64,000 nucleotides of DNA from Leptolyngbya sp. PCC 6406 (GTDB lineage Bacteria; Cyanobacteriota; Cyanobacteriia; Phormidesmidales; Phormidesmidaceae), in NCBI RefSeq assembly GCF_000332095.2, contig NZ_KI913949.1, forward strand, positions 4,363,048 through 4,427,047. The letters run 5' to 3'. Both the position numbers and the translations under genes were made by a program. The notes beneath the pieces are model-generated. The model worked only from the letters and a program-made list of their open reading frames with translations. It had not been told where the DNA came from and did no database searches. Each line of letters begins with the position of its first letter. Within the stretch, counting starts at the first letter, position 1. Positions 58,490 through 64,000 of the stretch are shown here, piece by piece.

Positions 58490-58710
58490 GTTCCGTTGGC
58501 CCCGTTATACCTCGGTTAGAGCCTGGTGGCGGTTTTGACGGCGGCTTCAGCAGCATCGCCCAAGGCATGAGCGGTGCTGGTGGCGTTGCCAAAGCCATCG
58601 GTCATGGCCCCTCGCAGTCAGTGGGTGAATGTCGCCATGGCGCGGGGTTGAAATCAGATTGGGTGCTAGTGACATAATAGAGTCCACGCTGACCCGCAAG
58701 GTGCTGTCCC

Positions 58711-59505
58711 ATGGCTGAGACCACCGGACTGATTTCTGATCCCATCCTTTACCCCGACTCCGATGGGCAACCGATGACCGAAAGCGATGCCACCCGCGAT
58801 TATCTGCTGTACTGCGTTGAGGTGTTGCGGCTTTATTTCAAGGGCCGCTCTAATGTTTACGTTTCGGGTAACTTGTTTGTTTACTACGAAGAAGGCAATC
58901 CCAAGGCTGCGATTTCCCCTGACGTATTTGTCATTTTTGGGGTGAGCAACCGCAAGCGCCGCAGCTATAAAACCTGGCAGGAAGGGGGCAAGTTGCCCAA
59001 TTTCGTCCTGGAAGTTACCTCCCGCAGTACGAAACGACAAGACGAAGTGGAAAAACCTCGCCTCTATGCCAGTCTGGGGGTACAAGAATACTTTCAGTAC
59101 GATCCCACGGCTGATTATCTCAACCCCCAATTGCGGGGGGCGCAACTGGTGGATGGCACTTACCAGCCATTGCCCCTGGCCTCAACCGCCGCTGGCTTGC
59201 CCTATATCCATAGCGCGGTGCTGGGGCTAGATTTGCAACTGCATCCCCCCTATCCAGAACTGGGACTAGCCCCTGCGGCTCAGGCGCTGCGGTTCTACGA
59301 TCCTCAAACGGGGACTAAGCTCCTGAGCCGAGATGAGCTGGAGCAGTTGCGGGAGGCGCTCCAGGAGGAGAATGGGTTGATTCAGCAGGATCGCGATGCC
59401 GCCCAGCAGGAACGCGATGCTGCTCAGCAGGAGCGCGATGCCGCCCAGCAACGGGCTGAGACTCTAGCCGCCCGCCTGCGGGAGTTGGGGATTGACCCGG
59501 AGTAG
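58711..59505 (+). CDS. Uma2-family (DUF820) endonuclease-like protein
   Basis: Uma2 proteins have a PD-(D/E)XK fold and are greatly expanded in cyanobacteria. The 264-aa product contains NPKAAISPDVFVIFGVSNRK (catalytic Asp), GGKLPNFVLEVTSRSTKRQD (E-x-T/K region) and GVQEYFQYDPTADYLNPQL. The C-terminal coiled coil is built from a 21-bp DNA repeat giving RDAAQQE units three times. The substrate is unknown. Confidence 0.88.
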   Translation: MAETTGLISDPILYPDSDGQPMTESDATRDYLLYCVEVLRLYFKGRSNVYVSGNLFVYYEEGNPKAAISPDVFVIFGVSNRKRRSYKTWQEGGKLPNFVLEVTSRSTKRQDEVEKPRLYASLGVQEYFQYDPTADYLNPQLRGAQLVDGTYQPLPLASTAAGLPYIHSAVLGLDLQLHPPYPELGLAPAAQALRFYDPQTGTKLLSRDELEQLREALQEENGLIQQDRDAAQQERDAAQQERDAAQQRAETLAARLRELGIDPE

Positions 59506-59580
59506 GACCTGGGTGCTTTACTCAGCGATGCATGGCCCTAAGAGGATATTTGAAAACACGGGGAAGGGGTATGAAAAGCC

Positions 59581-59883
59581 TCACGCGAGTCTCCGTAGCA
59601 TGATGCGAATCATGGCGATGTGGATCAGTGTCTCGGAGGATTCAGGCAAGCGCTCATAATCTACATTCAGCCGACGGCACCAATGGAGCCAGCCATAGGT
59701 GCGCTCCACCACCCAGCGCCTGGGTAAAAGGACGAACCCCTTGGCCCCTTGAGGACGCAATACCACTTCCACCACTATCGCAAACCAGTCAATTACCGTC
59801 TTGAAGAAGTCCACGCCCGAAAAGCCCCCATCCACCCAGATGAGCCCCAGGCGAGGCAGACGTTCTCGTTCCGGAGCGAACAA
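59581..59883 (-). CDS. IS5-family transposase, C-terminal frame
   Basis: This frame carries the second Asp (LIWVDGGFSGVDF) and the DDE Glu (VVERTYGWLHWCRRLNVDYE). It continues the N-terminal frame after a shift at about 59883. The listed start codon is only the first in frame; the natural product is the fusion. Confidence 0.8.
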   Translation of the reverse strand: MFAPERERLPRLGLIWVDGGFSGVDFFKTVIDWFAIVVEVVLRPQGAKGFVLLPRRWVVERTYGWLHWCRRLNVDYERLPESSETLIHIAMIRIMLRRLA

Positions 59884-60373
59884 CCGATAGCAGTTGTTTG
59901 GCTCCTTCCCGCTCCGGGACGCTGGCGGCTACCACCTTCACCGCCACTAATAACCCCAAGGTATCAACCAGGGTAAACCGCTTGCGACCCTTGATTTTCT
60001 TACCCCCGTCATAGCCCACCGATTGGCTCACCATGACTGCACTGGGCACGCTCTGAGAATCGAGAGTTCCCGCACTTGGGGTCGGAGCTCGGTCTTCGGC
60101 CACCCTCACCCAGGCCACCAAATGGTCATGCACTCGCTTCCAAGTGCCGTCGTTTTTCCACTGTCGGAAGTAGTAATACACCGTGGAATAGGGCGGAAAG
60201 GTCTTGGGCAACAGTGACCAGGCACAGCTCGTCGCTAAAACATACAGAATGGCGTTGATGACATCATAGAGGTCAACGGTGCGAGGTCTCCCTGTCGCTT
60301 TCGGGCCAGGGAGCAAGGGGAATAGGAGATCCCACTGGTCACGGGTCAGACTGCTGGAATATTCTGATGTCAT
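59789..60373 (-). CDS. IS5-family transposase, N-terminal frame
   Basis: It begins MTSEYSSSLTRDQWDLLFPL and contains YDVINAILYVLATSCAWSLL plus the first Asp in GTLDSQSVPSAV, then GYDGGKKIKGRKRFTLVDTL. Past LSVV the frame loses homology. A one-base shift at CGGTTGTTCGC joins it to the C-terminal frame: either programmed frameshifting, known in some IS5 subgroups, or decay. Confidence 0.8.
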   Translation of the reverse strand: MTSEYSSSLTRDQWDLLFPLLPGPKATGRPRTVDLYDVINAILYVLATSCAWSLLPKTFPPYSTVYYYFRQWKNDGTWKRVHDHLVAWVRVAEDRAPTPSAGTLDSQSVPSAVMVSQSVGYDGGKKIKGRKRFTLVDTLGLLVAVKVVAASVPEREGAKQLLSVVRSGTRTSASPGAHLGGWGLFGRGLLQDGN

Positions 60374-60558
60374 GGCTTCCAAGGGGCTACAGTTTTCATT
60401 AATCTGAGCCTAATACCGAGGAAGCCTTTTCTACGATCCGGGTTTCTATGTGCTAATTGATACTTTCCAAATATCCTCTTAGACCATCTGTCTGTTTCAG
60501 GGTAATTCGATTGCCTTCGCCAAGCTGCCGCCGGATGCAGTAGATAGATTGAATACAG

Positions 60559-61905
60559 TTACTCATCACCATATTCCCCTTCCATATCTGCCATGCTACG
60601 AGTATTTCCTGCCCACTCGATTGGCTTCAACAAAGCAGCTTTAGGATTGCCAATTTGGTCTCTATATTTTTGCTTCAAATCACGAACCTTATCTTTTATC
60701 TTTAGCCCTAATGAATGGCTAATAATACTGGAAATAAGCTTCCGTTCTGTTTTCCCACCTACAATTCTGCGTGTGCCTGGATTCCAGATCAAATTAGCCC
60801 AAGGAGAATCATCGATATCCATCGATATGTTTTCCATAATTGCGCCAATAGTTTCCGGAATTGACTTATCTTGAATGCCCGCAAGCATAAGCACCTCGGC
60901 AAGTATATATTGCCCCATAGGACGGGCGAAAATACTACCACCTGGCAAGGGATTGCCAGCATCATCAATTATCATTTTCCCATCTGAATCTGTTTTTTTT
61001 CTAAGATCACCCGGAGTTTTCTTCCCCTTTAATACTTGATCAAATCCTGGAGCTTTACCTAAGAGTTGCATCCACACCTGCTCAAGAAAGCCATAGTACT
61101 CATCTAGATCTTCATTAGAAGGTCTAAATTGCTTGAAACTACCATCAATATCACGCCCCATTTTGTAAGCAGGAATAGCTATCAAAATTTCGTTGGTCTC
61201 ATAAAATGCACTTAGAGTTGTGATGTAGGGATCGTTACCTTTACTAGGAGTAATTTGTTTCGACCCTAGTTTGCATAGAACTAAATTCTTTAAAACGCTA
61301 CTTTCTTTAACCAAGCGCCTTGTGACGATTGCAATAGCATCATCCTCGTCAATAGCAATATTAACTCCGGAAGATGTTGGCTTTGCTCGACGATTTAATG
61401 TTGAGAATAATCTACGAGTTCGTTGCAAGCCCTCTTTAGTATTTTCATGATTGAGGATAATTACAGTAATTTCTTCTTGCCTTAGATCAGGATCCATTGC
61501 AATAGCTTCTTGAATCGATCGCAAGCGATGTTGTCCATCTAGGGCGTAATAAACCTGACTTCCATCAAAGCGTAGTAGGCCAAACCCATAGCTGTGCTTA
61601 TCATCATCAAGGTCATTGAGAAGATCATGTTCAGCGACTTTGACAGGAGAAAACTCAGGTTCACCACCATACACTGCAACAACCAATGCGCCATAAAATC
61701 TTTGAGGCTCATTTAGAAGATAGGGAACCATCTCTTTTGAGACACGATTAGAAATTTCGCGCTGAATCACTTCGTCTAAATCTTTGTGCGCATGGATCTC
61801 TTCTGCTAGTTGACATTCTTTGGCAATCTTTCCAAGCTTCATAACAGTAACATAGTACTGCCAGTCTCCCATTCTAGCCTTTAATGCGGGCACATAATCA
61901 GCCAT
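60559..61905 (-). CDS. DGQHR-domain protein (DndB-like)
   Basis: The 448-aa product has the DGQHR motif in QVYYALDGQHRLRSIQEAIA at about 115-135, with preceding FYGALVVAVYGGEP and later RTRRLFSTLNRRAKPTSSG, the DndB/ParB-like pattern. DndB represses phosphorothioation (dnd) operons in several bacteria. Here dndC-like and other genes lie upstream on the same strand. The gene is A+T-rich. The frame is open to TTG 61911; ATG 61905 is chosen. Confidence 0.88.
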   Translation of the reverse strand: MADYVPALKARMGDWQYYVTVMKLGKIAKECQLAEEIHAHKDLDEVIQREISNRVSKEMVPYLLNEPQRFYGALVVAVYGGEPEFSPVKVAEHDLLNDLDDDKHSYGFGLLRFDGSQVYYALDGQHRLRSIQEAIAMDPDLRQEEITVIILNHENTKEGLQRTRRLFSTLNRRAKPTSSGVNIAIDEDDAIAIVTRRLVKESSVLKNLVLCKLGSKQITPSKGNDPYITTLSAFYETNEILIAIPAYKMGRDIDGSFKQFRPSNEDLDEYYGFLEQVWMQLLGKAPGFDQVLKGKKTPGDLRKKTDSDGKMIIDDAGNPLPGGSIFARPMGQYILAEVLMLAGIQDKSIPETIGAIMENISMDIDDSPWANLIWNPGTRRIVGGKTERKLISSIISHSLGLKIKDKVRDLKQKYRDQIGNPKAALLKPIEWAGNTRSMADMEGEYGDE

Positions 61906-61955
61906 GATCAAAAAACTCCCATGATAAAACTGATGAACAATGTAAGAGAGAAAAG

Positions 61956-62468
61956 CTATTCAAAAGCTTTTCCCCATAATCTTTGATGGCTAGGAATAGC
62001 CTCATTACAAGGTGGTCTACAACACATTAAAAGATGCTCTTCTACAGTATCGACATACACTCTTGGTAGCTGCGCCCACCAAAAGTATAGACACGTCTTA
62101 TACTTATTAAGCATCTTCACAACACTTTTACGACCTTTTGCATCTTGTTGCTCTTTGAAGTAATTTTCAAATCTTTCAGATAGATAACCAGGCGCGGCCT
62201 TTCCAATATACATAGGTAGATGCAATTCTTCTGGGAAAGGGTTTCCTAGTTGAATTGAAAAGCAGTAAACTCCATGCTTATCTGGGATCAGCTGTCTAGA
62301 TGCTTTCAGGAATTTGCACTTGTCCCATTTCAGTTCTACATCACCTACCACCTTAGGAAACTCATCGATATACTCAGGAAGCCATCGAAGGTTAAATTCA
62401 AAATCTTTTGGAAAATATCCTTGTATTGCTTCCTTTTGCTTCGCAAAATCATATGGCTCTTGACTCAT
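61956..62468 (-). CDS. GIY-YIG-like nuclease-fold protein
   Basis: The 170-aa product shows the GIY-YIG signature in order: HGVYCFSIQLG (GIY position), LPMYIGKAAPGYLSERFENY (YIG plus the conserved Arg), VDTVEEHLLMCC (Glu) and RPPCNEAIP (Asn). The N-terminal 60 residues are unique. It lies 51 bases upstream of the DGQHR gene on the same strand and is A+T-rich. The assignment is by motif order and spacing. Confidence 0.7.
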   Translation of the reverse strand: MSQEPYDFAKQKEAIQGYFPKDFEFNLRWLPEYIDEFPKVVGDVELKWDKCKFLKASRQLIPDKHGVYCFSIQLGNPFPEELHLPMYIGKAAPGYLSERFENYFKEQQDAKGRKSVVKMLNKYKTCLYFWWAQLPRVYVDTVEEHLLMCCRPPCNEAIPSHQRLWGKAFE

Positions 62469-62725
62469 AAATATTCTGTAATTTTACATGGATGATGTCA
62501 GATTAGGCTGAGACAAGTAGGCTACTTCTATTGAAATGAATTCTCAAAGGTTTAAGTTTTCGAGGGATAAGACATATATCAATATTTGTTTCGACTATCT
62601 AATTCTGCAAAAACATCTACTTGTACACAGTTTGTTTTATTCATAATTCCCATAAGTGCTTTGAATTTAACAGTGGTAAAATTCTTCTCCCACAATCTCA
62701 AGAAAAACATGAAAAATTGATGTCT
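62469..62725. other. A+T-rich gap within the accessory island
   Basis: No ORF, tRNA or clear hairpin is visible in these 257 bases. The strong A+T bias and its position ahead of the GIY-YIG gene on the minus strand suggest a promoter region. Confidence 0.4.
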
Positions 62726-63122
62726 TTAACAGGAAAGCTGTGCATTATCCAATTCCGACTCCTCAGGTTGTACTCCTAACGCTTTCAACTGCTCCACCAG
62801 CGGTTCTGCTCGTGCTTGGGCAGTCTCAGCCGCTTCCTCCGGAGTTGGTACTTGCTCCCCTGAAGAATGAAAGTACCGCAGAGTCTCATCTTTTAGATCT
62901 ATACATAGACTCAACATCTCACTCCATCGCCATCCGGCTTCATTAGAGGAGATCGCCTCATAGTGCTGACCAGCCAAGCAATAGCCCTCAAACTCCAGCG
63001 TCTCTGGAGAGAACCAGAAATACTCTGGAATTCTAAAGCGAACTTTCCATTTCTGGCTCATTGCTCTCTAGCTGGGTCGCATCTGGCATCAGGTCTGCCA
63101 ATTGTTGAGCAGTCATGACCAT
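62726..63122 (-). pseudogene. Uma2-family gene with internal deletion
   Basis: ATG 63122, preceded by AGGAAGGA, starts MVMTAQQLADLMPDATQLES, a typical Uma2 N-terminus, and stops after 29 codons. In the next frame the C-terminal part resumes with FRIPEYFWFSPETLEFEGYC and ends at 62726. The catalytic core (Asp and E-x-K strands) is missing, so a deletion plus frameshift has inactivated it. The C-terminal frame alone reads 111 codons. Confidence 0.8.
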
Positions 63123-63197
63123 AGCTCGTTCATCCTTCCTGCTAGTTACTCCTATTGTATGATCGGTCAAAGAAAGCAGAGTCCATTTCCCAAAAGG

Positions 63198-64000
63198 TTA
63201 CAGATGGCAGGCGAGGCATGGGAGTCGATCATCCTCATCCTCCAAAACTTGGGCTAACACATCGGCTAGTTTTCGTGAGGGGTTCTGTTGCTGCTGCCGT
63301 GCCATTGACCGCTCATGCTCGGCAATGATCACATCTTTACGCTGGAGTAACTCCAACAAGGTTTCTCCCTCCGTCCAGGTGTAGGTGCGTCCATCCGCAT
63401 GATTTTGTTCATACTCTATCGCCTCAGCAAATAGGTCAGGATGCTCTTGGGCCAGCATCACCCACTCATATTTACGCTGGAAGAAGCAAAAAAAGCATCC
63501 AGATCGGCTCCGCCAACGATAATAATCAGGCAGTCCAATACCACTTTCTTCTAATAAACGATAGATATCAGCTTTAACCAACCCATATTCTTTGAATGGA
63601 AATATAGGAGTAATATTAGACTTCTTAGAAATATAGCCGTCTCTATTTTCATCAGCCCGAATGCCGATATAGCTAATTGCCTCATCATCACCAATGAACT
63701 TTTCTAACGGAAGAATCTTCATTTGTTTCGTACACCAGCGCATATTAGGCGACGGCAGCGCCCCGCCGTACACATCTAACCAGTGATCAAAGCCTCTTTC
63801 AGCTTCTAGGCGCAAGATTTTTATGCCTAGTCTAACCTCAATTCTATCTAGATATTCCTCTGTTTCTGGCAATTCCTTATGGGTATCGCAGAAAAAATAC
63901 TCGATATTAAGCTCAGGATATTTTTGACGCATTAAGACAGCTAAAGCCGTACTGTCTTTACCGCCAGAGAGACCCAAAATATGTCTAACAGGCTTACTCA
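63198..64000 (-). CDS. PAPS-reductase/DndC-like ATP-pyrophosphatase (5' end beyond window)
   Basis: The visible 267 residues begin SKPVRHILGLSGGKDSTALA, where SGGKDS is the PP-loop. They continue with YFFCDTHKELPETEEYLDRI, NMRWCTKQMKILPLEKFIG, RADENRDGYISK and SRSGCFFCFFQRKYEWVMLA. A C-terminal CLACHL pair plus the RWC and CFFC cysteines could hold an iron-sulfur cluster, as in DndC. The frame continues off the window edge, probably by only a few codons. It is shorter than classical DndC. It leads the minus-strand island operon. Confidence 0.88.
   Translation of the reverse strand, partial: SKPVRHILGLSGGKDSTALAVLMRQKYPELNIEYFFCDTHKELPETEEYLDRIEVRLGIKILRLEAERGFDHWLDVYGGALPSPNMRWCTKQMKILPLEKFIGDDEAISYIGIRADENRDGYISKKSNITPIFPFKEYGLVKADIYRLLEESGIGLPDYYRWRSRSGCFFCFFQRKYEWVMLAQEHPDLFAEAIEYEQNHADGRTYTWTEGETLLELLQRKDVIIAEHERSMARQQQQNPSRKLADVLAQVLEDEDDRLPCLACHL

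Follow-up and report, generated by a model that had tools for sequence, protein, structure and literature searches.

What does a nuclease-like gene paired with a DGQHR-domain gene do beside the genes of phosphorothioate (PT) DNA modification? The question is raised by the end of a 64,000-nucleotide stretch of Leptolyngbya sp. PCC 6406 DNA (hereafter the window; bases 4363048-4427047 of the 5.47-Mb main contig in a cyanobacterial genome of 5.78 Mb), and it bears on a wider problem, as Wang et al. (PMC8092258) counted 2,211 of 2,678 sspBCD loci with neither SspE nor SspFGH and suggested further restriction partners as one possibility. By its gene content, this island is the 3' half of a PT-modifying Ssp operon of the SspBCD type. 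The GIY-YIG-like protein and the DGQHR protein encoded in it, a nuclease and a ParB-like nucleoside triphosphatase (NTPase) by prediction, are a concrete candidate for the restriction partner sought at such loci. We consider it fairly probable, from their motifs and gene context, that the two form a split effector of the SspE, DndI and GmrSD kind and constitute the restriction half of the operon.

The preliminary description of the window named its genes correctly, on one strand and at about the coordinates given in Table 1, and noted that more genes might lie past position 64000. DNA fetched across the window edge (L002, window 54001-74000) contains them, and the order, entirely on the minus strand, is sspB-sspC-sspD-[Uma2 relic]-GIY-YIG-DGQHR. 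High-scoring SspB, SspC and SspD matches in genes that overlap by 4 base pairs (bp), sspD with sspC and sspC with sspB, identify an sspB-sspC-sspD operon; the sspC product far exceeded its BrxC score (503 bits) with the SspC model. The suggestion of a reduced or alternative Dnd system therefore gives way to the modification half of the known Ssp system, as sspB and sspC are complete upstream of sspD. A full Dnd operon directly beyond the edge was also rejected, the genes there being sspC and sspB, and neither DndD nor DndE was recognised among the flanking open reading frames (ORFs), no genome-wide search having been made for them. The PAPS reductase-family protein, taken to be short, is in fact a full-length SspD that the window edge clips by a single codon. 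The cysteine motifs noted in it were sound: RWC, GCxFC and a C-terminal CxxC are conserved across six SspD proteins, together with the PP-loop SGGKDS (SGGRDS in two). As a DndC equivalog this protein was rejected (29.9 bits, cut-off 290.4).

Table 1. Features of the island and its surroundings, in window positions (aa, amino acids).
Feature	Position	Strand	Evidence
sspA relic, codons 27-55 (29 codons, 87 bp)	58522..58608	-	72% identity to the genome's intact sspA, E=1.5e-7; DNA 87% over 84 bp
IS5-type transposase, two overlapping frames, at the island edge	59581..60382	-	Pfam DUF4096 3.3e-27, DDE_Tnp_1 1.4e-7
DGQHR/DndB-domain protein, 450 aa; candidate ParB/Srx-type NTPase, proposed PT sensor	60559..61911	-	Pfam DndB 3.9e-31
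GIY-YIG nuclease-like protein, 170 aa; proposed nuclease subunit	61956..62468	-	motif and family profile
Uma2 C-terminal remnant, 111-aa ORF	62726..63061	-	Pfam Uma2 E=0.0028, below cut-off, profile 121-163 only
sspD, ATP-pyrophosphatase/sulfurtransferase, 267 aa	63198..64001 (first base outside the window)	-	PADLOC SspD 7.4e-115, whole model
sspC, ATPase, 1159 aa	63998-67477 (L002:9998-13477); 63998..64000, its 3' end, inside the window	-	PADLOC SspC 1470 bits
sspB, DUF4007, 313 aa	67474-68415 (L002:13474-14415), outside the window	-	PADLOC SspB 1.4e-112, Pfam DUF4007 1.5e-92

The GIY-YIG and DGQHR genes were found side by side, always in this order, at seven distinct loci from Cyanobacteria, Alpha- and Gammaproteobacteria and one phage contig, with ssp or dnd genes beside them in six of the seven. 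Besides the window, these loci belong to the cyanobacterium UBA2566 (L006; sspB-C-D-sspE-GIY-DGQHR-sspA), a Roseobacter plasmid (L010; sspA-B-C-D-GIY-DGQHR), a Rhizobium plasmid (L008; GIY-DGQHR-sspF-G-H, with sspD and sspC opposite), a Rhizobium NXC14 plasmid (L009; GIY-DGQHR-methyltransferase-dndBCDE-cysteine desulfurase), an integrative element of Salmonella Infantis (L055; GIY-DGQHR-dndI, convergent with dndBCDE, the DGQHR gene being frameshifted in the draft) and the phage contig (L041; an incomplete GIY gene followed by DGQHR). The two genes overlap in the Roseobacter and both Rhizobium loci. Every close GIY homologue found adjoins a DGQHR gene, and the five plasmid records returned by GIY-only searches were exactly the five best DGQHR records of that collection. 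Frequencies were gauged within Cyanobacteria, where, among 386 genomes, the window protein is the sole strong GIY match. Searches of E. coli genomes with the Salmonella pair gave no match, and neither did viral scans using the GIY-YIG alignment or the Roseobacter DGQHR protein.

A second, divergent pair type occupies the slot between sspD and sspA in a genome of the same family as the host (G170), whose SspB, SspC and SspD are 70%, 73% and 84% identical to those of the window. There, a different GIY-YIG protein (223 aa, PGIYAW...PIYIGMS...R...E...N) precedes a DGQHR protein of 762 aa. Only three other genomes of the 386 carry this type (G338, G340 and G352), and in all four the GIY-YIG gene stands between sspD, which it follows directly, and the DGQHR gene. 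Comparison of the two GIY types by hhalign was not significant, and orthology of the two pair types is not demonstrated. The IS5 element and the Uma2 remnant reveal a rearranged locus, in which the two genes could have become neighbours by chance within an A+T-rich island; this explanation is highly improbable and already contradicted by an order conserved over three bacterial classes and in two divergent pair types. Chance linkage was rejected on this conserved adjacency, and the grouping of the two families in the preliminary description is borne out.

The window GIY-YIG protein contains all five catalytic residues of the superfamily (Tyr, Tyr, Arg, Glu, Asn). Y87, G89, R99 and E143 are invariant in all seven relatives (the protein itself included), and Y68 and N155 are present in six. 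Pfam returned no match for it, no single family member reached the Pfam cut-off, and profiles of Protein Data Bank sequences gave no match. The profile of the seven-member family, however, matches the UvrC proteins of two genomes (E 7e-4 and 9.8e-4) with GVY...YIG...R...E...N aligned, in agreement with the original GIY-YIG-like call, and membership in the superfamily is established from motif and profile rather than from structure.

The DGQHR protein, whose probable ATG start is at 61905 as in its homologues, also matches the NCBIfam DGQHR model TIGR03187 (3.1e-29; 102.6 bits, cut-off 58.85). Its characterisation as DndB-like holds at the level of the DndB/DGQHR family but not for DndB itself: as a DndB equivalog it was rejected, scoring 81.3 bits where the cut-off is 328, and two of its relatives adjoin a genuine dndB (NXC14 and Salmonella). 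The motifs QR (50-51), DGQHR (125-129) and FxxxN (169-173) are invariant in seven relatives; the same three are listed for GmrS and DGQHR domains (PMC4619093), and a DGQQR motif is present in SspE and DndI (PMC13251355, PMC11662687). Against GmrSD_N the protein scored 17.3 bits (cut-off 33.2). Many cyanobacterial genomes (L015-L040) each hold one distant DGQHR match of 500-560 aa, which represents a separate and widespread family.

No SspE (a DUF262 + DUF1524 chain) was recognisable anywhere in the genome, the best hit being partial and of 30 bits. SspF likewise gave no genome-wide match, a weak negative since no control genome gave a signal either. With no recognisable SspE here, the pair is, among the local genes, the best candidate for the restriction half. 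In the split effector that we propose, SspB, SspC and SspD, with a desulfurase acting in trans, would place single-stranded PT marks on host DNA, as is known for the family. The DGQHR protein, a putative ParB/Srx-fold NTPase, would sense PT-DNA, hydrolyse NTP and gate the separately encoded GIY-YIG nuclease, presumably within a physical complex, and the nuclease would nick or cut unmarked incoming DNA, with a potential anti-phage effect. PT could either activate the nuclease, as in SspE, or restrain it on self DNA, as in DndI, the sequence being consistent with both. If true, two separate and exchangeable proteins could realise the SspE/DndI logic of a PT-sensing NTPase gating a nuclease.

Several known systems resemble this arrangement in part. 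SspABCD-SspE has the same modification genes sspB, sspC and sspD, and its SspE links a nuclease to a ParB-like NTPase of the DUF262 family that bears a DGQQR motif (PMC9646914, PMC13251355). The window DGQHR protein, in contrast, belongs to the DndB family and not to DUF262, the predicted nuclease is a separate protein of the GIY-YIG and not the HNH kind, and UBA2566 holds both the pair and SspE. In IscS-DndBCDE-DndI, a ParB-like NTPase plus nuclease can likewise serve alone as restriction partner of a PT system, and the Salmonella pair adjoins a DndI-like gene, although DndI is a single DUF262-HNH chain of the Dnd system (PMC11662687). The type IV restriction enzyme GmrS + GmrD offers a two-gene (or fused) layout of ParB/Srx NTPase and nuclease, GmrS having QR, DGQ(H/Q)R and FxxxN (PMC4619093), but GmrD is an HNH nuclease and GmrSD cuts modified phage DNA with no tie to a PT operon. 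SspABCD-SspFGH, an alternative partner of the same modification genes that adjoins the pair in the Rhizobium plasmid L008, differs in comprising three genes. Our literature search found no description of the GIY-YIG + DGQHR pair, with subscription papers, supplements and most preprints outside its reach; the pair would thus, provisionally, be undescribed, whereas the SspBCD modification half is already known.

A number of observations weigh against the split effector. The comparison of DGQHR with SspE N-termini by hhalign was not significant, and the proposed kinship therefore rests on the motifs and published work. AlphaFold models of both proteins were of low confidence because few sequences aligned: the predicted local distance difference test score averaged 54.7 for the DGQHR protein, with its N-terminal domain below 50, and 44.2 for the GIY-YIG protein, the order of strands and helices in the latter fitting GIY-YIG. 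Foldseek with the low-confidence DGQHR model returned no useful match. The pair coexists with SspE in UBA2566, SspFGH in Rhizobium and DndI in Salmonella and is thus not simply their replacement. An Anabaena DGQHR gene (L005/L050) has neither GIY-YIG nor HNH in front of it and is followed by genes for a PbeA-like helicase and an HATPase, and the phage copy of the GIY protein lacks the first tyrosine, with no modification genes seen nearby. The loci were found by DGQHR- or GIY-protein searches, so their frequencies are not unbiased. Finally, Rakesh et al. (PMC10853773) proposed standalone URI/GIY-YIG genes near Dnd loci as backup effectors.

This last proposal leads to the main competing explanation, that DGQHR is a DndB-like regulator of the PT operon and GIY-YIG an independent backup (suicide) nuclease firing when the system fails. 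Pfam does place the DGQHR protein in the DndB family, and DndB is described as a repressor that ATP modulates (PMC4507180; reviewed in PMC10853773). The genes described by Rakesh et al. share with ours the link of GIY-YIG nucleases to PT modification, but they are standalone boundary genes of Dnd, and the available part of that source mentions neither pairing with DGQHR nor Ssp loci. A true dndB already stands beside the pair in NXC14 and Salmonella, which together with the low DndB equivalog score argues against a regulator. Moreover, the two genes are strictly adjacent, overlap in three loci, move as a unit and give way jointly to the second GIY-YIG/DGQHR pair; such adjacency and joint replacement fit poorly with two independent functions, and we regard this explanation as unlikely.

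Base composition and sequence identity bear on the mobility of the pair. The A+T-richness ascribed to the island holds for the GIY-YIG gene (38.8% G+C), the DGQHR gene (40.6%) and sspD (44.4%), but not for sspC (53.9%) and sspB (53.6%) beyond the edge, which are near the window mean of 55.8%. In the window, UBA2566, Roseobacter and both Rhizobium loci, the GIY and DGQHR genes are similar in G+C and below the adjoining modification genes, sspE in UBA2566 being equally low. With Anabaena, the host shares 74% identity in the DGQHR protein and only 51% and 54% in SspB and SspC. The low G+C and this identity contrast suggest a separable module that moves independently of the modification genes. The low G+C might also indicate a mobile or addiction-like cassette of defence islands, self-contained with its nuclease and a controller, that makes no use of the PT mark, as would the phage copy and the mixed contexts of the pair (ssp, dnd, SspE, SspFGH, DndI). 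However, PT modification genes stand beside six of seven loci of the first type and four of four of the second, and several pairs lie inside the ssp operon between sspD and sspA or directly after sspABCD, which makes such a cassette rather improbable. The phage contig (L041:8821-14025) has a row of an adenine-methylase-like gene, the GIY fragment, DGQHR and a large ORF with a GHKL ATPase-like start (no Pfam match).

In Roseofilum (L007/L049), an HNH_4 protein takes the GIY-YIG position in front of a DGQHR protein 69% identical to that of the window; judging from this replacement, the nuclease ahead of DGQHR looks swappable. We give an even chance to the broader proposition that the pair is a modular PT-sensing restriction effector common to Ssp and Dnd, with swappable nucleases (GIY-YIG type 1, type 2 and HNH), which would explain part of the sspBCD loci that have no SspE or SspFGH. 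At cyanobacterial ssp loci, some with DGQHR and some lacking it, an HNH_4 protein (Cas9-like HNH; about 390 aa) is repeatedly found next to sspD (L060, L063, L064, L067, L077, L080 and L007:8796-9965), possibly as another ssp-linked nuclease. The Roseofilum genome (G213) has sspB, sspC, HNH, DGQHR and sspA and no sspD at E<=1e-30; its system may be broken or may use another sulfurtransferase. Further recurrent neighbours of ssp loci are a PbeA-like superfamily 2 helicase and an HATPase, in many cases placed between DGQHR and sspA (L005:11390-14831, L010:11477-15901, L091-L094), and the Roseobacter locus has an additional PLD-family protein beside them.

In relatives, the desulfurase gene sspA comes immediately after the DGQHR gene or after the helicase and HATPase genes that separate the two (L005, L006, L007). 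Here that place is occupied by the IS5-type transposase, which the preliminary description had rightly placed at one edge of the island, a Uma2 gene and the sspA relic. An intact sspA is located 1.8 Mb away (C1:2619320-2620468; 61% identity, 444 bits with the SspA model), SspA and DndA models scoring it almost equally. As sspA or iscS is reported to function from elsewhere in the genome (PMC8092258), the modification system may be complete, with its desulfurase in trans. The intact sspA adjoins a Uma2 gene that shares 87% DNA identity with the Uma2 gene of the window, and the likeness of this sspA/Uma2 segment to window 58522-59541 suggests duplication or recombination between the two loci; the relic may be what is left of an original sspA at this place or a piece copied from the distant locus. 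A small ORF overlapping the intact sspA resembles, together with its neighbour, a HEPN/MNT pair beside the Uma2 gene (L048:11315-14227).

The remnant between sspD and the pair, recognised from the start as a dead Uma2 gene, retains only a C-terminal piece, no further Uma2 sequence having been found upstream of it in any frame, and is probably not part of the system. Just upstream of sspB lie a PemK/MazF-like toxin gene and a possible small antitoxin gene (L002:14747-15321, window 68747-69321), followed on the plus strand by an N-terminally shortened YhcG/DUF1016 nuclease gene (PADLOC PDC-S02; L002:15631-16386, window 69631-70386).

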